Both the position numbers and the translations under genes were made by a program. This document shows positions 33,248 to 46,957 of a DNA stretch of 51,101 bases, piece after piece (within the stretch, counting starts at the first letter, position 1; each line of letters begins with the position of its first letter). Origin of the DNA: Sporolactobacillus vineae DSM 21990 = SL153 (GTDB lineage Bacteria > Bacillota > Bacilli > Bacillales > Sporolactobacillaceae); contig NZ_KB899055.1 in the NCBI RefSeq assembly GCF_000377985.1, positions 1 through 51,101 on the forward strand, read 5' to 3'. Under the pieces are notes generated by a model. That model was not told the origin of the DNA, did no database searches, and was given only the letters and a program-made list of their open reading frames with translations.

Positions 33248-33325
33248 TTAAAACGCACCATCGATTAGTAAATTCAAATAAGAAGCCACATTCAGTTCAT
33301 GACTATTTTTCAGTACGTCTGTTAT
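33248..33325 (-). pseudogene. 3' fragment of an unknown gene, copy 2 of a dispersed repeat
   Basis: The minus strand encodes ITDVLKNSHELNVAS followed by YLNLLIDGAF and a stop, matching copy 1 at 27751. At DNA level the segments TTTAAAACGCACCATCGA, TAGTAAATTCAAATAAGA and TTCATGACTATTTTTCAG are shared almost exactly. The two copies lie 5.4 kb apart in the same orientation. Confidence 0.45.
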
Positions 33326-33470
33326 TCACTAATCGGATTGAGGGCAGATATAAATCATGATTACGGAAATACATAATAAGCTCTCCGACCGGCAGCAATC
33401 TTACAGAACGACTGGAGGGCAACCTGGCAGGCGATTTCTTGGTATGTCTACAGGCATCTTCTAAGTTCAT
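33323..33470 (+). pseudogene. Left copy of a two-gene module: end of gene A and start of a PD-(D/E)XK nuclease gene
   Basis: About 120 bp align at roughly three quarters identity with 41168-41291. One frame reads YSLIGLRADINHDYGNT and stops, like YPLIGMKADMNHDRRNT at the right copy. The overlapping frame begins MITEIHNKLSDRQQS, like MIAEIHNKISQTNS, then shifts frame and continues ERLEGNLAGDF. A deletion then joins a later part (GTCTACAG). Clearly dead. Confidence 0.7.
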
Positions 33471-33478
33471 GAGAACAT

Positions 33479-33850
33479 TTATTGCATCACGTTCTGATTG
33501 ACTAAATGGGATGGCCTTTGATTTTTACTCAAATGCTGAACGAGCTGTTCCAGCGCTATTTTTCTTGCATTGTAAAAGGAATCTTCGGAAACAAAAGCGG
33601 CGTGAGGAGTAATCATTGTGTTGTCGAGGGCAAATAGGGGGCTTTCTTCAGTTGTTTCATCTTCAATGACATCAACCGCCGCAGCTTTGATTTCGTGGTT
33701 CGTTAATGCCTTCGCCAGTGCTTTTTCGTCAACAACCTTGCCGCGTGCCGTGTTGATCAGAAAGGCACTCTTTTTCATCATCTTTAATTCTCTTTCAGAA
33801 ATGAGATGCGTCGTCGAATCGGTGAGGGGACAATGCAGCGACAGGATGCT
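33479..33850 (-). pseudogene. D-2-hydroxyacid dehydrogenase, C-terminal fragment
   Basis: The minus strand reads SILSLHCPLTDSTTHLIS, then KKSAFLINTARGKVVDEKAL, AAAVDVIEDE and ITPHAAFVSEDS: the second NAD-binding half and catalytic His region of phosphoglycerate-dehydrogenase-like enzymes. The N-terminal ~200 residues are missing. Its upstream end is fused out of frame to an aminotransferase fragment, so it came from a deletion between two genes. Confidence 0.85.
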
Positions 33851-34206
33851 CTGGCCAGCTTCAAAGCCCCGTCCACGGCTTCGGCTCCGCCATTGGAAAA
33901 GAACACGGAATTCAGCCTGCCTGGCGTCACTTCAGCAAGTCGTTTGGCGAGCTTAAGCGTGGGCGGATAGTTTACCAAATTAAGTGAGGCATTGATCAAT
34001 TGTTTTGCCTGTTCTATAATCGCTGCAACAATCTTCGGATGGCAGTGTCCCAGTGCATTGACCGCTATGCCCTGAATAAAATCCAGATACTGGTCGCCAT
34101 GGTTATCAGTCAGATAGCACCCCTGACCGCTCTCCACAATCAGGTCTGTTGCCTTGGCAAGGGCTGGACTCAAATAGGGCTGATAATCCTCAATTTTCAC
34201 GCACAC
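33847..34206 (-). pseudogene. Class III aminotransferase, N-terminal fragment
   Basis: About 120 codons: YLSPALAKATDLIVESGQG, GIAVNALGHCHPKIV and FFSNGGAEAVDGALKLAR are the N-terminal third of an acetylornithine/4-aminobutyrate-type PLP enzyme. Similarity stops after ALKLARA, where family members continue into the HGRT region; the sequence then becomes the dehydrogenase in another frame. The PLP lysine is absent. The start is GTG at 34206 or 34200 (GGGGG upstream). Non-functional. Confidence 0.85.
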
Positions 34207-34334: not shown

Positions 34335-36245
34335 TCAATCTTCTTTCGTCTTATATGCTTGCTTCGGATGATGCAAGTCCGATTTATATAATGGTTCCAG
34401 AGTTCCCTCATGAACCATTTTCCTGATATAACCTACTCTCAGGGAATCTGGTGTACGACATAAATACTGACTCATTTCTCTGATGGTAAACTCTTTGTAA
34501 GTGCACAGTGTCATAATAAGTCCCTCCATTTGATCACGGGAGAGTCTCTTTCTTTGTCTGGCAATTTCAGTTATTTTCCAAAGTTGATCCAACTCCCCGT
34601 CTCTGTTAATTTCGGAGTTTTGAGCGTTAATTTCGGAGCTTTGAGCGTTAATTTCGGAGCTTTGAGCGTTAATTTCGGAGCTTTTCTCATTAGTGTGATT
34701 ATTAGCCGCAAAAAAACTAATTTGTTTTTGAGTATGTTCAGATGCTCTATTAAAAACACGTTCCGACAGTGTATATTTTGTTCCCCTTCCAAATCCTGTT
34801 GATTGTAATAAGCATTTATCCACAACAAGGCGAGTTAACAGACGATTCACTTCCCAGCTATTTTTATCCAGAAGTTGCTGCAGTCGTACATTTGTCACTT
34901 CATTTTCTTGGTATGCAGTAGTTAGCGCCATCAATTCGTCTCCATCCAATTTCATATCATCAAATTTGCCTCTTAATGAATTTTTTATGAAATGAATACT
35001 TTTTTCCGGTAACAAGGAAATCGCTTTTAATTTTAATATTGTTCGATCATTCTGAAAATCTTCTTCAAGGAATGGTGGTTGCCATTGCTTTCTTTTCCAA
35101 ATATATCGTATTGTTGGTATACCCGATCCAGCACGTTCTCCAATTCCGATTAAGGCAAATATTTTAAAAAGATATGCATTTCTTGGATCACTTACGCCGC
35201 CTCTTAATGCTTGTTCAAGTGGTACTCGTAAAGTTCCCGGGTTACTAAAGACAAATTCATTATGATTATTTTGAACGACAATGCCTTGCGATCCAAAATA
35301 ATCAGCATGAATTAGTGTATTTGCCAGAGCTTCGCGCATCGCCACTTGAACATCACTCTCATTTTTTCGATAAAGTCCGTTCATTTCAAATGGAACACTT
35401 ATATTCTGAATCAATCGTTCCAATGATTTAAAGAAAAAATGATATACATTTGCCTGCCATGTACCATCTATTGAGGTAAACCGATCTGCCCAACGTTCCT
35501 GGAATTCACGGTTTCCTGCCTCACGATATTCAAGAAAAAAGCCTGGTAAATAGTCAAGTATCGATCTGCTCTTACCAAACATTAATAAACCGGCAACTGT
35601 AAGTCCTTCAACATCTTTCTCGCGGTCCCGACCATAAGCATTAATTTCATACAAGAAATCGGCATCATTCAGTTCATTCCATGCATGAGTCTGATTTTGA
35701 TTCAAGAATCGATGCCGATATGCACGTAATGTTTCTATATCGATGTCATGTAATCCAAAGTTTTCAAGAACCTTGCTGTCTGCAGTGATAGACCGTTGAT
35801 CAGCCAGCATGCTTTTTACGATTTGTGGATTACAGAGATAATCACCCTCGAAATTTCTCCGAAATGTTCCGCTAAACGGACTTTGACCTTTGTAAATCGG
35901 TCTTTGTTCACGATTTGCACGCGGAATATGGATGATTAGTATAACTTTCCCCTCGACTGTATCTTGAACAATATCTTCTTCGCGTAAAATATTTGCGCTT
36001 ACCTTTTGTCGATTGTTTAAAGAGTCCCAAAGATCTTTGATTAGTGGATGAGGATCAACACCGGAAATCTCAAATTGATGGTCTGATAATTCTTTAACAC
36101 CCAGAATGACCAAGCCGCCCTCAGTATTGGCAAAGGAGGAGTACGTTTCAAAAAAAGATCGCGGCAATGATCGCCTTGCTTCCTTACATTCAAAATCGAT
36201 ACTTTCTCCTGCTTGAATTAGCTCTTCTATTTCTTGACTTTTCAT
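34335..36245 (-). CDS. AlbA_2 (Schlafen-type) / GHKL ATPase protein with tandem repeats
   Basis: 636 residues. Residues 12-130 form an AlbA_2/Schlafen-like domain (ESIDFECKEARRSLP, SFANTEGGLVILGVKE, a later FRRN). A GHKL ATPase-type region follows (about 300-380: MREALANTLIHADYF, FSNPGTL, GIGERAGSGI), and then winged-helix-like segments (about 430-500 and 555-620). These proteins are often labelled RecG-like regulators; several act in defence islands. Between the winged helices, residues 522-547 are a heptad repeat SEINAQS encoded by 21-bp repeats. GGAGAG precedes the ATG, 34 bp after the 53-residue gene. Last gene of the sigma-helicase operon. Confidence 0.85.
   Translation of the reverse strand: MKSQEIEELIQAGESIDFECKEARRSLPRSFFETYSSFANTEGGLVILGVKELSDHQFEISGVDPHPLIKDLWDSLNNRQKVSANILREEDIVQDTVEGKVILIIHIPRANREQRPIYKGQSPFSGTFRRNFEGDYLCNPQIVKSMLADQRSITADSKVLENFGLHDIDIETLRAYRHRFLNQNQTHAWNELNDADFLYEINAYGRDREKDVEGLTVAGLLMFGKSRSILDYLPGFFLEYREAGNREFQERWADRFTSIDGTWQANVYHFFFKSLERLIQNISVPFEMNGLYRKNESDVQVAMREALANTLIHADYFGSQGIVVQNNHNEFVFSNPGTLRVPLEQALRGGVSDPRNAYLFKIFALIGIGERAGSGIPTIRYIWKRKQWQPPFLEEDFQNDRTILKLKAISLLPEKSIHFIKNSLRGKFDDMKLDGDELMALTTAYQENEVTNVRLQQLLDKNSWEVNRLLTRLVVDKCLLQSTGFGRGTKYTLSERVFNRASEHTQKQISFFAANNHTNEKSSEINAQSSEINAQSSEINAQNSEINRDGELDQLWKITEIARQRKRLSRDQMEGLIMTLCTYKEFTIREMSQYLCRTPDSLRVGYIRKMVHEGTLEPLYKSDLHHPKQAYKTKED
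34606..34689. repeat. 21-bp in-frame tandem repeat inside the AlbA_2/ATPase gene
   Basis: The unit TTAATTTCGGAGCTTTGAGC plus G occurs three times in full plus a fourth copy cut after 17 bases; the first copy differs by one base. The copies are nearly identical, so the array is young or kept by slippage. Because the unit is 21 bp, copy number changes keep the frame. Confidence 0.9.
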
Positions 36246-36279
36246 TGGCGCTCTCTCCGTTCTCGCTGTTCCGTCTCAC

Positions 36280-36441
36280 CTAAGCGAATGTCGCAAAAAT
36301 ATCAGTGCAAACCCGACTTACCTGATACGATAGATATCTCAGAGTTTCTTCAAAAATTGATAACTTTCCTTTACTTTCTTCCGTAAAAGTGAAAGCTCTA
36401 TCGACAAAATGCTTTCTTTCCCTAGCAGTTCTCTCCTTCAT
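36280..36441 (-). CDS. 53-residue protein coupled to the helicase gene
   Basis: The ATG overlaps the helicase stop in ATGA, and the frame runs 53 codons: MKERTARERKHFVDRAF, TFTEESKGKLSIFEET, then LRYLSYQVSRVCTDIFATFA. The N-terminus is basic and the rest helical; no family recognised. It fills most of the gap before the AlbA_2 gene. Stop-start overlap and position in a tight operon favour a real gene. GTGGGAG lies just upstream of the ATG, inside the helicase gene. Confidence 0.6.
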   Translation of the reverse strand: MKERTARERKHFVDRAFTFTEESKGKLSIFEETLRYLSYQVSRVCTDIFATFA

Positions 36442-39400
36442 TCTCCCACCCTTTGTTCCTCTGCTAACGCCTCATATTTCACTTTATCCGGCAGTCTCCC
36501 GAGAAAATAATCTTCAATGATGTTCCAAAAATCTGTGGTATAGTTCTCGGTCTGCTCTTGCCTGGAACCCTTTTCCGGCCTTTTGGGCAACGTAAACAAG
36601 TAGTTGAGCATTGCCATGCTGATTCGATGTTTTTTGTGAACCTCGGCCATAATCAGATTATTGTAGCTTTTCGGCGAGTGAATCGCCCGATCCAGTGAAT
36701 AAATACTGTTGATGCGTATGTAGATTTGCGGATTGTTGCCGCCCTGAATCTCGTAGTTCAGTAAATCCAGAGACTCGGATAGACCCAGGATAATGAGAAA
36801 CTCCTCCAATTCCTGATCATCTTTTGTCAGATGCCTGTAAAAGGTATATTGCTTCCCCTCTTCTCTAGCAAAGGACTGCCCGGTATAAAGTTTCTTCACG
36901 GCGTTCTCCAGACGGTTAAAGTAATTGATGTAATTGGGGTAGACCTTATACCGTGTTTTCTGATCCTCACGGACAATCATGTATCGCCCATTTGACTGAT
37001 TTAGATGTACGGTCAGATGTGCCATACCATTCAGAAAAACATGAGCCAGTCCCTCCGCCTTGTAACGATTGGACAACTGCAGCCTCTCATTCAGATAGCC
37101 ACCCAACTGCTTTTCATCAAAGAACCGCTCCGCATAAGTCTGCCCTCGTAAAAACTCCTCCACAACCTGCAGGAACTGGTTAAATTCTGACATGACAGTT
37201 GCTCTATCATTGTTTTTAAGATCAACGGAAATCTGAACAGCAGAATCCATTGTATCAAATAGTTTAAGATCCCTTAACGAAGGATCCTTCTTAAACACAA
37301 GATACTTGAATTGGGCGAATGAATGGTGCGCGTACTTCTTTTCCCATAGCGCTTTCATATTGAATTGGTAAACACCGGCATAATAGCTGTCGGTGTCAAA
37401 CGTCTGAAGCAGTTGAAAAAACGGCCGGTAACTAGCCTTTTCAATCAGCTGCTTGCCCTGTTTACTGAGGAATACAGTCTGGTTAGCGAACAAAGATCTG
37501 GGACGGGCCACAATCGGTGAATACCCCATCTTCCGCTCAAAGTCCTTCTCGATGGTCAGAAGTACGATCTTCAGGCGATTATCGGCATTTTTATCCGACA
37601 GCGCTCCTTTGTCAAAGATATAAGAAAAGTCATCCGCGCTGACAACCAGATTGCGGCTTTTCTTCGTATAATAGATATCCAAAATCTTCTTCATAACATT
37701 GATAACTTCACTTTTTCTTATGGTGGACAGGCCATAGAGCCGCTTCACTTCAGTAAAGTCCTTGTTGAGAAAGTCAAAGTAGGCATGGCCGGTCATGGCA
37801 GGATCACGGGCAGCCCGTCCGATTTCCTGAACATAATCAATCACATTTCCAGTCGGTGCATAATGATAGACATTGTTAATGTCTTTAATATCGATGCCCA
37901 TACCGAATGCTTTCGTCGCCAGCATGATCTTGGCATCACCGCGATGGAATGCTGCAAAATTTCCTTTTTTCTCATCATTGTCTAGCGGTCCGTAATAACG
38001 CACTGTCTTTGCTGCTAACTCTTGTTCGAACTGTTTCAGATGACTGTAAAAGTAATTCAACAGTTTAACTGTCGGGAAATAAACCAGGGTTTTTTCCTTT
38101 CTTCTCGTAAACGTCTTCAACCGTTTGCTTAATAACCCGAATTTTGCTTTCCGATAATCGTTTGAATATTTCCCGTAATCCTTCTCTGAAGACTGAACAT
38201 GCATCATCAAATCATCACGCTTCACATAGCCGAAATAAGTAATGGGATTAACCATATTCAGACTATCCCGAGTCTCCGCATACATGTCCTCAGGTCCTCC
38301 GTATATTGCCGTGGCGGTAAAGGTCACAATTGGGAACTTTTGCTTTTTTCTCAGCCTGGCTAAATAGGAACCCAGATACCAGTAGTCCGCCCGAAAGGAC
38401 TTTCCCCATGTGGTGACGATATGCGCTTCGTCAATCACAAACAGCCCAAGTTTCCTTGTTCCGATAAGCATTTCAATATCCGACCGGCTCAGCAGCGTTT
38501 CCGTTGATATGTATAAAATGTCGATCTCTCCATTTTGCACGCGTTGAATAATTTCGTTCTTTTCAACCGGGGAAATGCCTGAGTTTAACGTTTTTGCGTT
38601 TGAGATATTTTTACGTTCCAATCCTTTTACCTGATCATCCATCAGCCCGATTAACGGAGAAATGACAATCGTCATCAGCCGCTGTGACTTATATTTTTCC
38701 GCCAGATAAAGCGCAGGCAGCTGAAACATGATCGATTTCCCTGCACCAGTCGGAGAGGTCACATAGATGTCTCTTGGTGTCGCATCCGGATCGTCCATGG
38801 CAATGGAGGCCTGGTCCACGATGTCATCAATGATCTGTGCTTGACTGACTTCAATCGTTTCATTCCCGTTTCCATCGATATTTTTGTACATTTTCAGAGG
38901 GCGAAAAGAGTCATAGCCCCAATACTTCTTCAAAATACTCAGATAATCAGGCAAGCGTGTAATTTTCTTTCGTGCCAGCTTTTTACTGGAGAGAAAAAGA
39001 TGGAGGTGTCCATCATAAAGATGACTGAGAAGAGCCAATCGCTGATCATAGTGATGGGGCAGATTGCTTCGGTCATCAGCAAAGAAGGCACAGGCTTTCT
39101 CAATCCCCTTGTCTGATTTCAGCTGGTCAATAAAAGACAGGAAAGAATCCTCACTGTTCGATAATTCGAAGACATAGGTTTCCTGATCAATCACTGGATT
39201 CTCCAGATAGTCAACCGGTTCCAGTCCTTCTGTGTCAAAGAAAAGCTCCTGATGCGCAAAATTCCGGTCGGCATCCGCATAGGTGACGTAGTACTTTTGA
39301 TTCAGTTCGTTGAAATAAATCTTGCCATAATATGTAGAAATCAAATCCAGCTGTTCCTGTTGCCTAGCCGTCAATTCTTCGTCATCATTTTCGTAAAGTT

Positions 39401-39764
39401 CCTTGTAAACTGAATATACGCTCGTCAGCGTCTGATCGTAAGGATACAAAGCATCATACAGATTGTTTTTCAAACCGACGACTGTATAAAAATTACTGAT
39501 GAAGTTTTTGACCGTTATGTATTCTTCAAAGGTACACCATGAGAACTGTTCAAGAGGTTGTCTCCTTTTATCAATTGCTTCCACGACCAGGTCATTCTGT
39601 CTCGCCATCAAATCATTGATCTTTGCCCCAAGCTCGATCGAAAAAAATTTATTCGGTTCATCACGAAGATCACTTCTCTGAAATCCCTCAAAAACAACAA
39701 GGATCGGTTTTTCTTCATTTAACCACGCATGTAGTGCTTGAGCTTTCTTCGCAATCAATGACAT
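36438..39764 (-). CDS. RecQ-like DEAD/DEAH helicase with large flanking domains
   Basis: 1108 residues. The SF2 core shows motif I SPTGAGKS (337-344), Ia VISPLIGLMDDQ, motif II DEAH (445-448), motif III TFTATA, then ATKAFGMGID and motif VI QEIGRAARD (646-654), a RecQ-type arrangement. The ~330 residues before and ~430 after the core match nothing I recognise; there is no RecQ zinc-binding or HRDC pattern. The N-terminal region (PILVVFEGFQRSDLRDEPN) might be a nuclease- or sensor-like domain, but I see no clear catalytic motif. GGTG lies seven bases before the ATG, only 6 bp after the sigma gene. Probably works with that sigma factor and the AlbA_2 protein. Confidence 0.85.
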   Translation of the reverse strand: MSLIAKKAQALHAWLNEEKPILVVFEGFQRSDLRDEPNKFFSIELGAKINDLMARQNDLVVEAIDKRRQPLEQFSWCTFEEYITVKNFISNFYTVVGLKNNLYDALYPYDQTLTSVYSVYKELYENDDEELTARQQEQLDLISTYYGKIYFNELNQKYYVTYADADRNFAHQELFFDTEGLEPVDYLENPVIDQETYVFELSNSEDSFLSFIDQLKSDKGIEKACAFFADDRSNLPHHYDQRLALLSHLYDGHLHLFLSSKKLARKKITRLPDYLSILKKYWGYDSFRPLKMYKNIDGNGNETIEVSQAQIIDDIVDQASIAMDDPDATPRDIYVTSPTGAGKSIMFQLPALYLAEKYKSQRLMTIVISPLIGLMDDQVKGLERKNISNAKTLNSGISPVEKNEIIQRVQNGEIDILYISTETLLSRSDIEMLIGTRKLGLFVIDEAHIVTTWGKSFRADYWYLGSYLARLRKKQKFPIVTFTATAIYGGPEDMYAETRDSLNMVNPITYFGYVKRDDLMMHVQSSEKDYGKYSNDYRKAKFGLLSKRLKTFTRRKEKTLVYFPTVKLLNYFYSHLKQFEQELAAKTVRYYGPLDNDEKKGNFAAFHRGDAKIMLATKAFGMGIDIKDINNVYHYAPTGNVIDYVQEIGRAARDPAMTGHAYFDFLNKDFTEVKRLYGLSTIRKSEVINVMKKILDIYYTKKSRNLVVSADDFSYIFDKGALSDKNADNRLKIVLLTIEKDFERKMGYSPIVARPRSLFANQTVFLSKQGKQLIEKASYRPFFQLLQTFDTDSYYAGVYQFNMKALWEKKYAHHSFAQFKYLVFKKDPSLRDLKLFDTMDSAVQISVDLKNNDRATVMSEFNQFLQVVEEFLRGQTYAERFFDEKQLGGYLNERLQLSNRYKAEGLAHVFLNGMAHLTVHLNQSNGRYMIVREDQKTRYKVYPNYINYFNRLENAVKKLYTGQSFAREEGKQYTFYRHLTKDDQELEEFLIILGLSESLDLLNYEIQGGNNPQIYIRINSIYSLDRAIHSPKSYNNLIMAEVHKKHRISMAMLNYLFTLPKRPEKGSRQEQTENYTTDFWNIIEDYFLGRLPDKVKYEALAEEQRVGE

Positions 39765-39770
39765 ATACGT

Positions 39771-40955
39771 TCACCTTTCAATAAATACTTTAAGTGTTTT
39801 GCTTCGGGACGGTTGGCGAAGTTTTCTGAGTGCTTTTGCTTCGATCTGCCTGATGCGCTCACGAGTCAAATGATACAGCTGACCTACTTCCTCAAGAGTC
39901 AGCGGTTTACCGCCATCCAGTCCGAATCTTGAGCGGATCACACCCGCTTCACGCGGTTTCAGCTCAGCAAGTGCCCTTTCCAATACACGTCGTGCCTCTT
40001 TCCTTTCGAACGCTTCGTCGGGTGTCATCATATAATCAGGAGTCGCGTCACCTTTTCCCAAAGCTTGTTTTGCAGGTAATAAATCCAACAATTCAGTATC
40101 CCCATCTTTACCAACAGTTACATCAAGATGTGCCAGCTGATCGAACTGGTAAATGATACGCTGAATCTTCCAGTAATCTTCAAGACTTATTCTCAGATTC
40201 TCACACAGCTGCTTCAGGTCAACAGTACCGAACGTATTTTCAAATCTTTGTTCCGTTTTTCTTACTTTTAGAATCTTTTCATGAAGATGAACAGGCAGGC
40301 GGATCAGGCGAGATTCATCAGCAATCCCACGAGTGATTGATTGCCTGATCCACCATGTCGCGTAGGTTGAAAATTGATAGCCCATGTCCGGATTGAATCT
40401 TGCGATGCTTTTCAGTAGCCCTTGATCACCAAACACGATCAAGTCGTCCTCATCCAGACAGGTTCCTCTAATCATCGCTGTATATCTGCCGGCTACCGTT
40501 TCTACCAATCTCTTATTCATGATGACTATCTGGTTAAGTTTCTGAGATTTCTCTGCATCTGTATCCGACATTCTTTGATAGGCCCGGATATTTGAGGTAT
40601 TAGTTGAGTAGTCATCTGTTGCAGTTTTAGACTCCTTTTTAAATTCATCCGAATTGAGAAAGTCGTCGATATCAAAATCATCTTCCGCATCAACTTCAGA
40701 GTTAGCGGGTCCCTTGTTTCTTTCAGAGTGAGCAGCTGTAGCTGCTGCATCTTTTCGTCTGAATCCTAACGAAGCCATATCCTTCCAAAATTGATCTTTA
40801 TTGTTGTGGTAAGCTTCCATAAAGTGCCGTTTATCGATCATTCTGTTCGCTTGAGATAATTGGTTAAGTATATCATCAATAGAATGCGGCAGTACCTTAT
40901 CCTTGAAAATATTTGAAAATATTGATCGCAGATCTATTGTCCCCATTGCCATCAT
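39771..40955 (-). CDS. Sigma-70-family RNA polymerase sigma factor, non-housekeeping
   Basis: 394 residues from the ATG at 40955 (GGGAG six bases upstream; a TTG at 40988 is open but poorer). Region 2 is complete (LIVFGDQGLLKSIARFNPDMG, FSTYATWWIRQSITRGIAD, IRLPVHLHEKI). Region 3 is weaker. Region 4 is clear (EAGVIRSRFGLDGG, LTLEEVGQLYHLTRERIRQIE). Residues 1-130 are an unusual N-terminal extension with an acidic stretch (EVDAEDDFDIDDF), not sigma region 1.1 as I know it. A sigma factor of this RpoD-like form as first gene of a helicase operon is unexpected. It may direct transcription of its own operon. Confidence 0.9.
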   Translation of the reverse strand: MMAMGTIDLRSIFSNIFKDKVLPHSIDDILNQLSQANRMIDKRHFMEAYHNNKDQFWKDMASLGFRRKDAAATAAHSERNKGPANSEVDAEDDFDIDDFLNSDEFKKESKTATDDYSTNTSNIRAYQRMSDTDAEKSQKLNQIVIMNKRLVETVAGRYTAMIRGTCLDEDDLIVFGDQGLLKSIARFNPDMGYQFSTYATWWIRQSITRGIADESRLIRLPVHLHEKILKVRKTEQRFENTFGTVDLKQLCENLRISLEDYWKIQRIIYQFDQLAHLDVTVGKDGDTELLDLLPAKQALGKGDATPDYMMTPDEAFERKEARRVLERALAELKPREAGVIRSRFGLDGGKPLTLEEVGQLYHLTRERIRQIEAKALRKLRQPSRSKTLKVFIER

Positions 40956-41041
40956 ATACCGCTCCCGGTTGAAAGAAGTCTGGTACAAATTCTCAATGAA
41001 TAATATGATAGATTAATCCAATGAACTTAGAACTATATTAA

Positions 41042-41221
41042 TTATTCGACGCAATCCTTCAAATTCCTTTAATAGGCACTAAATTTCCAGCTAAAGTATT
41101 GGGAAACTCAATAAATTTGCAAGATCCGGCAGGAAGTCGATTATTGCTATGGAATTATATAGATAGTTATCCATTAATCGGAATGAAGGCGGATATGAAT
41201 CATGATCGCAGAAATACATAA
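41042..41221 (+). pseudogene. 3' end of unknown gene A, right copy
   Basis: An open frame without start reads FDAILQIPLIGTKFPAKVLG, DPAGSRLLLWNYIDSYPL and MKADMNHDRRNT, then stops 20 bp inside the nuclease gene. The last 17 residues are conserved in the left copy at 33323, which supports coding. The family is unknown. The body of the gene is missing; the sigma gene's promoter region lies where it should be. Confidence 0.5.
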
Positions 41222-41621
41222 TAAAATTTCTCAGACCAACAGCAATCACTCAGAAAGACTAGAAGACAATCTGACCGGAGATTTCTTTGGAACATTGCGC
41301 TATCTTCCCTTTGAAAGGGGTCTGAATTATGTTCTGTCTACAGCACAGTTCAATGAAGAAAATGCCAACATACATTGGCATAAGTTTATTAACTCATTGC
41401 ACGGTTACCCTTTCAACTTTCAGTTCTGGAAGAGAATCCAGAATGATGAAATAGATTTACTGTTGACTTCTGAACGTGCAGTGATTGGCATTGAAGTAAA
41501 ACTAGACAGCATGTTGTCCTCTGAAGATGAAGATACCGAGAAACCAACAGACTATATCGAAAGCAAAAACCAGTTGGCACGATACTCTAAGATTGCTCCC
41601 AACGGGTACTATCACTTATGA
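41202..41621 (+). pseudogene. PD-(D/E)XK nuclease-like protein, 3'-truncated
   Basis: 139 codons from the ATG at 41202. The protein includes RLEDNLTGDFFGTLRYLPF and a nuclease core ID(LLL) with EVKLDS: the D of NDEIDLLL and the E-x-K of GIEVKLDS fit PD-(D/E)XK. Coding breaks at about 41605, where a UvrD-like helicase sequence takes over in another frame. An intact protein would be longer. Part of the same module as the left copy at 33323. Probably from a restriction or defence locus. Confidence 0.7.
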
Positions 41622-42786
41622 CGCCATCATCATTCTTGTTCTGTATCTCTTTAACAAGTATCCGACCGTCCATCACGGCTTTCAGCGTAGTATTAGCGCC
41701 ATCTGTATCGACGAATTTCAAGATAGCAACATCCTTGGAATGGCACTATTGCATGCCCTGCTCAACGAGAACACCAGATGTGTGGCTTTTGGGGATCAAA
41801 TGCAGCAAATCTTTAGTTTTCAAGGCGCAATTCCCAATCTGATTGATCGATTACTGGACTGGGCCACTGATGACTAAATTTCATACCTGAGGCTTATGAA
41901 GAATTATCGCTTTTCGGGTAATAAGGATATGCTGGATTTGGATCAAGCCCTACGAGATTTCCGTGATAACCCAACGCGGTATACTACTGACAAACCTGTC
42001 AAGATAAAATTTCTGCACGGAACAGATATCTTCTCACAAGCACAGGCAATCGCGAACTTGATAAAGTCAATCAGGGTTGATGATCCTGATGCTACTTTTG
42101 CCATTCTCTTCAATCAGGCAACAGCCACGACTTCAGCATTGCTGACCGACCTGACCCGGCAAACAAAGTTAATGGATGCGACTTTCAAGACAGAGGACCC
42201 TCAGTTCAAATTGTTCCAACAATCAGTGCTTGAACTTTATCAATCTACGTTCGCTACGCGGCCAATTCACAAAAACGAAATTCAAACATTTTGTAAACGG
42301 GTTGAGCAATCAATACCAAAATATCGTTTTAACTCATCATTCATAGAACTGCTGAAGGCATTCTTAACTACTAGCATAAAGAAGTTTCCAACAAGCATGC
42401 GATCGGAATACATTGTCTCCACGCTCAGTTCTGAATCTCTCCACCAAAGTCTCCCAGATGTCTCGAGTAGAATTGTTGCTACCACTATTCATGGCGCCAA
42501 GGGTCTGGAATGGGACTATGTCATCCTTGCAAACTTCCAACAGGAAGAATTCCCCAACTATTATGATTTACTAAGTCTGGGCATTTCGTCCGATGAGACG
42601 CACATTCAAGTTACAGACGCAAATGCCCGCGCTCTAAGTAGCATAATCAATAAACTCTACGTCGGTTTCTCTCGAGCCAAAAAGCAGATATATTTCGCGT
42701 ACTCCGACAAAGGACTCAAACCTTGGGGAGAATTTGACACTAGCATCAGCGTTCTAACATCGTTGCCGTTCTTCTCAATAAGCTAA
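41609..42786 (+). pseudogene. UvrD/Rep-like helicase, 5'-truncated with internal stop
   Basis: One continuous frame holds motif II ICIDEFQDSN, motif III AFGDQMQQIFSFQGA, then TAA at 41875, then KNYRFSGN, motif V ATTIHGAKGLEWDYVIL and motif VI LYVGFSRAKKQIYF. The Walker A part is missing because the sequence was joined to the nuclease by a deletion. The TAA is in frame, so one base change would restore reading. It is therefore dead twice over. Related UvrD proteins occur with nucleases in bacterial defence loci. Confidence 0.85.
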
Positions 42787-43642: not shown

Positions 43643-44920
43643 TTACTTATTGAACATATGAGGTAAAAAGAGTGAAAAATCTGGCCAGTAAGTTATTAAA
43701 CCTAACACAAGCAATAAAATAGCAAACTGTGGCAAAAAAGATTTAACTGCTCGTAATAGAGTAGTTTTAGCAATTGCTGCGGTTGTAATGAGGCATATAC
43801 CAACAGGAGGAGTAATCATCCCTATTGTTAGATTAAAAACAATCATTAGCCCATATTGAATAGGATCCATGCCAATGCTCTGCATTATTGGAAAAAAAAG
43901 TGGAGTAAAAATAGTCAGAGCCGGCACCGTTTCAATAAAAGTTCCTGCTATTAATAAAGCAATGTTGATAATTAGCAATATTATCCATTTTTCATGGAAA
44001 GTACTCGTTATTGCATCGCTCAATATCTGTGGGATGTCGTTGTAGGTCAAAACCCAGCTGAATACACTTGCTGTCGCAATTAAAAACATGATAGATGAAG
44101 TTGTTTTTGTAGACTGTAATAACATTTTGGGAATCATTTTTAGTTTAAGATCTTTGTTAAAAAAAACAGCTACGATAAATCCATACACCACTGCAACAAC
44201 TCCTGCTTCAGTAGCTGTAAAAATACCTAATCTGAATCCACCAATGATCAGTATAGGTAAAAGTAACGCTAGAAAAGCATCTTTAAATCCAGTAAGAATT
44301 TCCTTAATAGAAGCACGTTTCTCTCTCTCTTTGATCTTAAACTTTCTTCCATAGAGATATACATATATCATCAAGAAAACGCCTATCATAACACCGGGGA
44401 TAACTCCTGATAAAAAAAGATCACCAATTGATGCATTAGTCATAACACCAAAAAGTACAAGCGGAATGGATGGCGGGATCATTGGACCCATCATTGAACC
44501 TGATGCTACTATGCTTGCAGAGAAATTTCTGTTATATCCCCTATTTATCATTGAAGGTATTAATATACTTCCTAATGCAACAGCGTCACCAATTGCAGAA
44601 CCTGATATAGCTGAAAATAACATACATGAAAGAATAACTACTAAACCTAAGCCACCATATAAATGTCCGACCAGAAGATCGGCAAAATTAACTAACTTTT
44701 GGGAAATGCCTCCAGCAGCCATTATATCGCCTGCAAAAAGAAAAAGTGGTATAGCTAACATCGAATAATTAACACTTGACACCATTTGCTGGGACATAGT
44801 GTCAAGACTTGTTCCAGTCATAATTAATCCAAACAAAGAGGAAATACCTAGGGCAAATGAAATAGGCACACGAATAATAAATAGTGCGAAAAGGATCAAA
44901 ACCATATAAAGACCAATCAA
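43643..44920 (-). CDS. TRAP transporter large permease (DctM)
   Basis: 425 residues, about twelve membrane segments. Typical DctM features are VPISFALG near the start, YSMLAIPLFLFAGDIMAAGG, GSAIGDAVALGSILIPSM and MGPMIPPSIPLVLFGV. It forms the ion-driven channel for a carboxylate or amide substrate. The reading frame is open to 44944, but I choose TTG at 44920: it overlaps the DctQ stop by 4 bp (TTGA) and gives MIGLYMVLILFAL. It is the last gene of the operon. Confidence 0.93.
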   Translation of the reverse strand: MIGLYMVLILFALFIIRVPISFALGISSLFGLIMTGTSLDTMSQQMVSSVNYSMLAIPLFLFAGDIMAAGGISQKLVNFADLLVGHLYGGLGLVVILSCMLFSAISGSAIGDAVALGSILIPSMINRGYNRNFSASIVASGSMMGPMIPPSIPLVLFGVMTNASIGDLFLSGVIPGVMIGVFLMIYVYLYGRKFKIKEREKRASIKEILTGFKDAFLALLLPILIIGGFRLGIFTATEAGVVAVVYGFIVAVFFNKDLKLKMIPKMLLQSTKTTSSIMFLIATASVFSWVLTYNDIPQILSDAITSTFHEKWIILLIINIALLIAGTFIETVPALTIFTPLFFPIMQSIGMDPIQYGLMIVFNLTIGMITPPVGICLITTAAIAKTTLLRAVKSFLPQFAILLLVLGLITYWPDFSLFLPHMFNK

Positions 44921-45402
44921 ATTTTTCCACTCTCCTTTTTCCAATTAATTATTTCTATAATCCATCTCCTAATGAAGTAATAGACCATTAGCACGCCTGA
45001 AATAGGTAGAACAATATTAGTCCAAGCAAGAGAAATGGAAAGGGATTGACTAATTGTTCCTATGGAATTTATAGTATAGTTCCACGAACTTCCAGTAAAA
45101 ACTATTACAAAGAGTATAGTTACTACATAGTTTATTGATATTAATACCTTTTGAATCCTTATTGGGAAAATGCCAAGAAAATCAACTGTAAAATGAGAAT
45201 TATATTTAACACCCAGTGCAGCTCCAAAAAACACAAGATATTCAAATAGCATTTGTACAATTTCATCCATCCAAGGAATGCCAATCTTAAGGACAGACCG
45301 AAAAACCACAGATATAAATACACAAATTGAAAGTGCGCCCAGTGTCCCACCACCAATAATTTCAAGCCAATTTTTAAGTGATTTAGTTATGATTTGTTTC
45401 AC
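44917..45402 (-). CDS. TRAP transporter small permease (DctQ)
   Basis: 161 residues with four membrane helices and the DctQ pattern: VFRSVLKIGIPWMDEIVQML, then FFGAALGVKYNSHFTVD. Partner of DctM. The start is GTG at 45402, seven bases after GAGGAGC. A hairpin separates it from the binding-protein gene by lying at 45436-45460. Confidence 0.92.
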   Translation of the reverse strand: MKQIITKSLKNWLEIIGGGTLGALSICVFISVVFRSVLKIGIPWMDEIVQMLFEYLVFFGAALGVKYNSHFTVDFLGIFPIRIQKVLISINYVVTILFVIVFTGSSWNYTINSIGTISQSLSISLAWTNIVLPISGVLMVYYFIRRWIIEIINWKKESGKI

Positions 45403-45435
45403 GTTTATCAGCTCCTCTATCTGTATTTAAAATAA

Positions 45436-45460
45436 AAGGGCTGGATCTCACTCAGCCCTT
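45436..45460 (-). terminator. Hairpin between TRAP binding protein and permeases
   Basis: AAGGGCT and AGCCCTT flank an 11-base loop, with TTATTTT on the minus strand. It probably works as a partial terminator giving more binding protein than permease. Confidence 0.6.
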
Positions 45461-45501
45461 AAAAAAATTTATCTATTACAATTTCTTATCCATACATCAG
45501 G

Positions 45502-46521
45502 TTACTTCGTGTTTTCAATTTTATTTACCAAACTTTTAGGAACAAATTTTGCAATTGCATTTGCAGAATTTTTCGTTGCCGCTTTAAAAGCTGCAATATC
45601 AGGATTAGTTATAATAATACCTTTGGCTTTTAAGTTGTTAAGTGTTTGTTGCTCCGTCTTTGCTAAATAGTCTCTTTGTTCGGCATATGCTTTTTGAACA
45701 TCGGCCTTAACTAGTTTTTGTTGATCAGGCGACAATTTTTTCCAAGTTGCTGGGCTCATAAGCACGACATTTGCTGTGTAAGAATGTTTCGTTAAACTCA
45801 AGTACTTGTTAACTTCATAAAACTTCATGGCATTAATTGTTGCTATAGGATTCTCCTGACCATCAACTACGCCTTGTTGCAGAGAACTATAAAGCTCTGT
45901 GAAACTGATTGATGTTGGAACTGCACCTAATTCTTTCATAAATGCATTCCAAACTGGTGCTGGTTGTATTCTGATTTTAAGTCCCTTCATGTCAGCAGGA
46001 GTTTTAATGGGATGTTTACTGTTTGTAATGTTTCTGAAACCTACCTCTGAAAAACCAAGGCCAATTAATTGGTGCTTATCCACTTCTTTCAGAAGACTAC
46101 TACCAATACCACCATCAAGAACATGATAGACTTGGCTTCTAGTGTTCATTAAATAAGGAATTCCAAATACATTCATAACAGGCACTACCTGTGCTAATGA
46201 ACTATCTGCTGCAACCTCAGTCATATCAATCGACCCAGTTTGAACTCCCTGGATTTCTGCATCTTCAGCTCCCAATTGACCATTTGGATAAATTTTAACT
46301 TTTATTTTTCCTTTACTGTCTTTTTCAATCATTTTTTTAAAATCTTCAGCATATATATTATCTTGGTGTATAAGAGATCCAACATGTGCAAATTTTAAAG
46401 TTATTGGGGCGCCACTACTTCCTGCTTTACTGGAGCTACTTCCATTAGTGCTGCTGCATCCAGATAAAGCAATAGCTAGTAAAAGACTAAGTGCTATAGT
46501 AATTGCTTTTTTAAATTGCAT
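45502..46521 (-). CDS. TRAP transporter substrate-binding lipoprotein (DctP family)
   Basis: 339 residues. The start is the ATG at 46521 (GAGGGAG seven bases upstream). A lipoprotein signal ends at LSGC (C22), then a serine-rich linker. Family motifs include LGAEDAEIQGVQTGSIDMT, GLKIRIQPAPVWNAFMKELG and SFTELYSSLQQGVVDGQENP; the arginine of KIRIQP is the usual carboxylate contact, so the ligand is probably an organic acid. First gene of the operon, divergent from the nitrilase and DUF2848 genes, which may act on the same compound. Confidence 0.93.
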   Translation of the reverse strand: MQFKKAITIALSLLLAIALSGCSSTNGSSSSKAGSSGAPITLKFAHVGSLIHQDNIYAEDFKKMIEKDSKGKIKVKIYPNGQLGAEDAEIQGVQTGSIDMTEVAADSSLAQVVPVMNVFGIPYLMNTRSQVYHVLDGGIGSSLLKEVDKHQLIGLGFSEVGFRNITNSKHPIKTPADMKGLKIRIQPAPVWNAFMKELGAVPTSISFTELYSSLQQGVVDGQENPIATINAMKFYEVNKYLSLTKHSYTANVVLMSPATWKKLSPDQQKLVKADVQKAYAEQRDYLAKTEQQTLNNLKAKGIIITNPDIAAFKAATKNSANAIAKFVPKSLVNKIENTK

Positions 46522-46957
46522 AAGTACACTCCCTCGTTGGTTTTTTTGCTTATCTATTTCTGATATCAAAAGTGAACATATTACCCATAGTTAGTTGTGT
46601 TACAAGCTTAAAAAAACAGGCATATATCCATTCTTAAAATCATGTAATGCAATACCCATAATCCCAATTCTTAAAGGATCTCTAACGTGAGCATAATAAA
46701 TATGTACTGTCTTAAAGTTTACTCAACTTCAGATACCGACTCAGATCTCTGAATAACATGTCATTTGTTAACTATCCTGGAATACCTTGTTGTTTTACTG
46801 GAATAATCTGATTAATCATATTATTCCCTCCTTTTCGTATAGTGTTAACATTCTAATACTCAAGTACTAATCCACAATATGAAGGGTTACTTTTATCGCC
46901 TCCACAAAAAGTTGTAACAATGTCTATAATAATCAGAAAATATTTAATTTAAATATA

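Follow-up and report, generated by a model that had tools for sequence, protein, structure and literature searches.

The window analysed here is a 51,101-nucleotide stretch of Sporolactobacillus vineae DSM 21990 = SL153 (NZ_KB899055.1, positions 1 to 51,101 of the forward strand), in which a sigma factor gene and the gene of a large RecQ-type helicase lie side by side. The two form a conserved pair of Bacillota that is often found near defence genes. It is new as a pair within the literature searched, i.e., none of the literature matches listed (titles and abstract starts of open-licence papers) describes a sigma-helicase defence pair, while the helicase family itself is already known as a PADLOC candidate. 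The locus contains these open reading frames (ORFs):

39771..40955, minus strand: partner sigma factor, RpoD-derived; 394 amino acids from the ATG at 40955, preceded by GGGAG, which judging from the sequence is the most likely start and agrees with the gene end given in the first-pass annotation
39771-40988, minus strand: longest ORF for the same sigma factor; TTG start, 405 amino acids
36438..39764, minus strand: RecQ-type superfamily 2 (SF2) helicase, 1108 amino acids; PADLOC family C3a193
36280..36441, minus strand: 53-amino-acid ORF with an ATGA overlap with the helicase stop; no homologue found
34335..36245, minus strand: AlbA_2 (Schlafen-type) plus HATPase_c_4 protein, 636 amino acids

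The sigma factor and helicase genes are separated by 6 bp, the helicase gene and the 53-amino-acid ORF share the 4-bp ATGA, and a further 34 bp lead to the AlbA_2 gene. Pfam finds Sigma70_r2 and Sigma70_r4 in the window sigma factor (Sigma70_r3 solely at E 0.44), DEAD (residues 330-487) and Helicase_C (547-653) in the helicase, SLFN_AlbA_2 and HATPase_c_4 in the 636-residue protein, and no match in the 53-amino-acid ORF. The first-pass annotation, which was made from the DNA letters, therefore placed and spaced the four genes correctly and recognised both the sigma-70 regions and the AlbA_2 ATPase; the acidic N-terminal extension that it reported for the sigma factor exists as well, and recurs in the family. 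Its view of the four genes as one operon unit does not hold, because only the sigma factor and the helicase recur together across related loci.

Pairing and co-inheritance of the two genes

Matches to the helicase occur in 7 of 397 genomes within the order (E≤1e-60), 12 of 398 within the class and 15 of 398 within the phylum (profile search, E≤1e-80), the last comprising nine that cover most of the profile and six that cover the RecQ core alone. Each count includes the window genome, which holds two more helicase matches elsewhere (both core-only), and one genome (G115) is in both the order and the class counts. Among plasmid records, 234 match the helicase, and six of these reach a query coverage of 80% or more; the pair occurs on plasmids of Enterococcus faecium, Lactiplantibacillus plantarum and Exiguobacterium. 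When plasmids were searched with the sigma factor, the best 50 of 223 records included many that are rpoD or unannotated and four Lactiplantibacillus plasmids with the pair. Among phage records, 25 gave a match, none covering 80% of the query.

Pairing was assessed at 21 loci and in the window by mapping ORFs and clustering them with blastp, and at 12 further loci by profile searches. In a 30-row helicase tree, one subclade (branch support 100/98) has a sigma factor gene adjacent to the helicase gene in 21 of its 21 assembled members. A 22nd member (L027, genome G155), unlabelled in the tree, is split by a contig end: its helicase begins 656 bases from that end beside a divergent ORF of 108 amino acids, which by eye resembles the N-terminal module of the partner sigma factors, and another contig carries the remainder of a sigma factor, 308 bases short of that contig's end. 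The eight sampled rows outside the subclade have no adjacent sigma factor, though one of them (L066) offers just 544 bases upstream of its helicase. Four unpaired genomes, G413 (L041), G851, G1068 and G1047, each give a single sigma factor match at E≤1e-25, their SigA. The rows of the tree are partly dependent (L036 and L007 are near copies; L037, the same plasmid as L007, was omitted), and L035 has an interruption in the helicase frame close to the C-terminus. Two loci stand outside the tree: L081 (G902), and L008, which is cut by an IS30 element and where no sigma factor was seen.

The genes of the pair are co-directional in 13 rows and divergent in 8, which requires at least three changes on the tree. 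Since sigma factor and helicase are still side by side after these changes, their adjacency has outlasted rearrangement.

The partner sigma factors share a common descent. All 20 of them (from 18 genomes and two plasmids) split from 19 host SigA sequences with support of 97/97, on branches that the tree program flagged as long, and in the host genomes the partner sigma factor is an extra gene besides SigA. The pair is also co-inherited: across the 13 genomes having all three genes, distances correlate at 0.85 between helicase and sigma factor, 0.68 between helicase and SigA, and 0.53 between sigma factor and SigA, and the partial Mantel correlation of helicase and sigma factor given SigA is 0.79 (permutation p 0.0001).

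Some sigma-less relatives of the helicase have other neighbours. At L067 (5414-10721), L080 (7772-14879) and L082 (8151-13702) they adjoin NERD nuclease, UvrD-type or OLD-like TOPRIM genes, which are perhaps alternative helicase partners.

Anatomy of the helicase and the sigma factor

The RecQ model TIGR01389 covers residues 329-680 of the window helicase at 194 bits, under its cut-off of 640, in agreement with the RecQ-type core of the first-pass annotation. Residues 1-300 and 700-1108, which lie in the flanks it did not recognise, have no Pfam match even at E 10, and Pfam scans found no RQC or HRDC domain. Motif I, DEAH (motif II), the aromatic-rich loop, TATA (motif III) and QEIGR-A/V-AR (motif VI) are intact in all 18 helicases tested, which are the whole-genome copies among the 21 paired ones. 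Judging from these motifs, the RecQ-type ATPase core is intact, and it is flanked by private N- and C-terminal regions. Both ends contain almost invariant positions in 30 helicase sequences with and without a sigma factor: on the N-terminal side G27, F28, E80, E81, N100 and N101, and on the C-terminal side six positions in the stretch from W1080 to G1089. The predicted structure is good (predicted local distance difference test score, pLDDT, 84; predicted template-modelling score, pTM, 0.83). The 50 PDB matches listed for it are RecQ-family helicases and the viral-library matches listed are mostly helicases, with query TM-scores of at most 0.30 in both libraries; the search was aimed at the terminal regions.

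The partner sigma factors keep most of the residues which we take to read promoter DNA. The region 4.2 signature TRER..Q (R347, E348, R349 and Q352 in the numbering of the genome's own SigA ORF), presumably responsible for −35 reading, is kept in 20/20, as is Q200, presumably the main −10 glutamine; T203 is kept in 14/20. The first residue of the tryptophan pair, to which we assign promoter melting, is kept in 12/20 and changed in 8/20. These retained reading residues fit a working sigma factor. The DPVRMYL motif of region 1.2, on the other hand, is present in 0/20 partner sigma factors versus 19/19 SigA sequences. An N-terminal module of their own and an acidic stretch are common across the family. 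As to a possible kinship of this N-terminus with region 1.1, hhalign gave a probability of 14.7% and an E of 0.0018 for a colinear alignment of 81 columns (19 of the 20 rows, G272 having been dropped by the cutting rule). The predicted sigma factor structure is weak, with a pLDDT of 66 overall and the lowest values at the N-terminus and linkers.

One way to read this anatomy is as a single machine at RNA polymerase. The sigma factor would bring the polymerase to −10/−35 sites, which the helicase would open or clear by ATP hydrolysis, or it would bring the helicase to transcribed foreign DNA. The absence of region 1.2 from all 20 partner sigma factors, the changed first tryptophan of eight of them and the co-inheritance of the two genes all suit this idea. 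So do the nearly invariant residues in the private helicase ends, but these are equally invariant in a set that includes unpaired helicases and so were not added for the sigma factor. Moreover, other groups of sigma factors also do without region 1.2 and need no helicase. We consider a joint machine possible but unlikely. Its boldest form, an ATP-driven transcription machine of bacterial immunity in which a sigma factor without region 1.2 (and partly without one melting tryptophan) needs the RecQ-type helicase for promoter opening or aims it at transcribed foreign DNA, is distinctly unlikely; if true, it would be a bacterial counterpart of eukaryotic helicase-assisted initiation.

The sequences of the partner sigma factors have also diverged far beyond those of SigA, with a mean pairwise identity over regions 2-4 of 0.40 versus 0.91 in the same 13 genomes. 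Divergence of this kind would be expected of a contested surface and could mean that the sigma factor serves as a restraint or bait, i.e., that it keeps the helicase inactive or senses a phage anti-sigma factor, and that its capture by a phage frees a DNA-damaging helicase. The analogy is with RqlH/RqlI (PsyrTA), where, according to the available part of PMC4670107, a RecQ-like helicase is genotoxic unless restrained by its operon partner. That same part places the toxicity of RqlH in its PRTase domain, however, and neither Pfam nor PADLOC scans found such a domain in the window helicase. Quick divergence fits frequent transfer equally well, and outside the subclade the helicase exists without a sigma factor; this explanation is rather unlikely.

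Defence context and proposed function

The surroundings of the pair are rich in defence genes. The 140 proteins within approximately 4.5 kb of it (21 loci including the window) gave 232 PADLOC models at E≤1e-20, compared with 14 from 140 control proteins; these counts are redundant, with many models per protein, and are not gene counts. The controls were thinned evenly from 192 proteins in 20 hand-chosen stretches of the same genomes (18 stretches on the SigA-bearing contig, none on a plasmid) and are possibly poorer in islands than a random draw. The 25 of the 232 near-pair models that were listed are type I methyltransferase and specificity subunits, mad5, BrxC and PbeA, and the 14 control models are mad2, mad3, RtcR-type and helicase-type. 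With Pfam (E≤1e-8), the neighbours yielded Methylase_S (5), ResIII (4), Phage_integrase (4), N6_Mtase (3) and DUF6079 (2), none of which is among the best 25 of 190 control families, where AAA_21 appears twice.

At the level of loci, type I restriction-modification (RM) or McrBC genes occur at 5 of 21. Type I RM adjoins the pair at L005 and is assigned by cluster membership at L033 and L034, L038 has an N6 methylase with Methylase_S, and L030 has McrB and McrC. There is also an HNH gene at L007, while the AAA_21 neighbour at L032 is unspecific, since the control has AAA_21 too; the remaining single-locus flanks are ordinary (peptidases, glycerate kinase, a transporter). At L076 (7268-18588) and L077 (7569-19206), the pair is followed by large genes. 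From their size, these are probably the two BrxC-like (DUF6079) proteins, which hints at a BREX-type unit alongside.

The pair's presence on plasmids, together with Phage_integrase in 4 of 140 neighbour proteins, would suit a module that maintains or repairs mobile elements and has no defence role, which might aid plasmid or island replication, or gene expression in new hosts. The RM/McrBC genes at five loci and the excess of PADLOC models over the control point away from such a module, neither of them decisively, and we regard it as doubtful, about as much so as the bait.

The other two genes in the window appear to be local companions. Of the 22 genomes or records that carry the pair, 6 have SLFN_AlbA_2 (PF04326), and one, the window, has it beside the pair. 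Among 17 relatives besides its own genome, the AlbA_2 protein has a single partial match, at 32%, and no homologue of full length. In 22 related loci (two duplicate pairs included), tblastn at E≤1e-3 matched neither this protein nor the 53-amino-acid one, a test that is weak for so short an ORF. These loci include the closest relative, L026 (helicase 69% identical), where 1.4 kb are visible behind the helicase. Tight spacing in the window is what might suggest a module in which all four proteins act jointly, and against a linkage of 1/22 and the absent matches we find that highly improbable and rule out both genes as members of the system. The AlbA_2/HATPase gene and the 53-amino-acid ORF probably joined the operon locally; the latter would be a passenger or chance ORF outside the conserved core. 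According to the available portion of PMC12839542, BREX and related loci are often accompanied by Schlafen-type proteins that have a minimal histidine-kinase part, so the AlbA_2 protein fits a local defence passenger. Within its gene, a direct repeat with a 21-nt period (34605-34684) codes for a repeated SEINAQS-like peptide.

That the two genes have remained neighbours despite rearrangement and transfer points to a shared job, probably defence. We tentatively interpret the pair as a two-gene defence-island module, with the helicase as effector and a dedicated sigma factor that is most likely its transcriptional switch. The helicase, with its RecQ-type ATPase core and private termini, would act on invading or damaged DNA. 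The sigma factor, descended from RpoD and apparently dedicated to the helicase, would enable RNA polymerase to transcribe the helicase gene and defence genes close by at times when the housekeeping sigma factor is limiting or has been captured by a phage. Where the sigma factor and helicase genes diverge, the short gap they share would suit a regulator next to the gene it controls. We infer the anti-phage activity, the effector role of the helicase and the regulatory role of the sigma factor, and hold the switch model as the leading but tentative reading, the complex and bait models being real rivals. The nucleic-acid-sensing defence or island-control module of the first-pass annotation survives in part: the helicase does have a conserved sigma factor partner, and defence genes frequently lie close to the two, but the AlbA_2 protein and the 53-amino-acid ORF are not members. 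Conditional transcription driven by the sigma factor, also proposed there, is plausible and unproven.

Several points weigh against a defence switch. An island location is an association, not a function, and we know of no phage assay of the pair. The helicase family also occurs without a sigma factor, outside the subclade, and at L081 a broken helicase frame is followed by a sigma factor from the SigA side. A distinct regulon is not implied, because the reading residues of the partner sigma factors equal those of SigA. A scan for SigA-type promoters in eight divergent sigma-helicase gaps found none above shuffles (p 0.16-0.96; low power, and the L032 coordinates are approximate). Finally, the annotated sigma factor at L005 begins 36 bp after hsdR, which leaves little space for a promoter of its own.

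Few bacterial proteins have been studied as thoroughly as sigma factors, yet here is one tied to a single helicase and moving with it between genera and on plasmids. This makes two questions testable: how defence genes keep or gain transcription once a phage has captured the host polymerase, and whether transcription initiation can itself be part of sensing.

The window has further features around the operon. Head to head with it, on the plus strand at 41202-42786, lies a broken gene for a nuclease-like and UvrD helicase protein in three ORFs (41202-41621, 41527-41877 and 41896-42786), whose last piece matches GajB, the best PADLOC model, at 233 bits. A 59-nt direct repeat, 85% identical between its copies at 33321-33379 and 41166-41224, flanks the operon, and a third copy is on another contig (C27:5245-5330, 91% over 86 nt). 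The repeat spans the start region of the UvrD-type gene; the same gene start is thereby present on either side of the operon. On the minus strand at 33479-34206, a 2-hydroxyacid dehydrogenase fragment abuts a class-III aminotransferase fragment, a junction that might be the remnant of a deletion or insertion. TRAP transporter genes (DctM, DctQ and DctP; 43643-46569, minus strand) adjoin the defence genes, in a stretch whose G+C content is lower.

Comparison with known systems

As the first-pass annotation anticipated, the locus is not BREX, DISARM, Gabija, Zorya or Dnd, as far as a PADLOC scan shows. Like SigA/RpoD, the partner sigma factors keep regions 2 and 4 with their DNA-reading residues, but they form a separate clade with a divergent N-terminus and no DPVRMYL motif. 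The window helicase shares its core, aromatic-rich loop and motifs with RecQ DNA helicases and differs from them in its two private terminal regions, its lack of a detected RQC or HRDC domain and its score below the curated RecQ threshold.

The MZA system includes a sigma factor, MzaA (available part of PMC9523054). MzaA is the top NCBIfam model and the sole PADLOC model for the window sigma factor, but the match reaches 244 bits against a curated cut-off of 800 and covers residues 132-404 only. MzaB and MzaD, which are MutL-like, are not among the best 25 of 232 near-pair PADLOC families, and no search was aimed at them. MZA membership is ruled out by the MzaA score and by the two tested MZA partners being unlinked.

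The available section of PMC10925250 classes DpdF and PsyrT as SF2_RecQ among the 20 defence helicases it assigns. It also describes Hachiman, whose helicase detects DNA damage and then releases a nuclease, a precedent that, like RqlH/RqlI, bears on the complex and bait models. PsyrTA is, like the present pair, a two-gene unit with a RecQ-type helicase, but the partner here is a sigma factor, and the PsyrT model matches the core of the window helicase alone (residues 333-658).

The window helicase belongs to the PADLOC candidate family C3a193, labelled 'poss. alt. Cas3'. Its residues 267-1090 match profile positions 215-981 of 983 at 511 bits, and seven tested relatives match at 448-775 bits, some near full length (e.g., L029, residues 6-1074); the top-scoring of these, L079, is sigma-less. 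The CRISPR link implied by the label was rejected, as no spaced-repeat array was found in 32 loci with an exact 22-mer test. The C3a193 model describes a single protein, and no sigma factor partner was seen tied to it. A helicase family that PADLOC lists just as a possible alternative Cas3 thereby gains a conserved partner.

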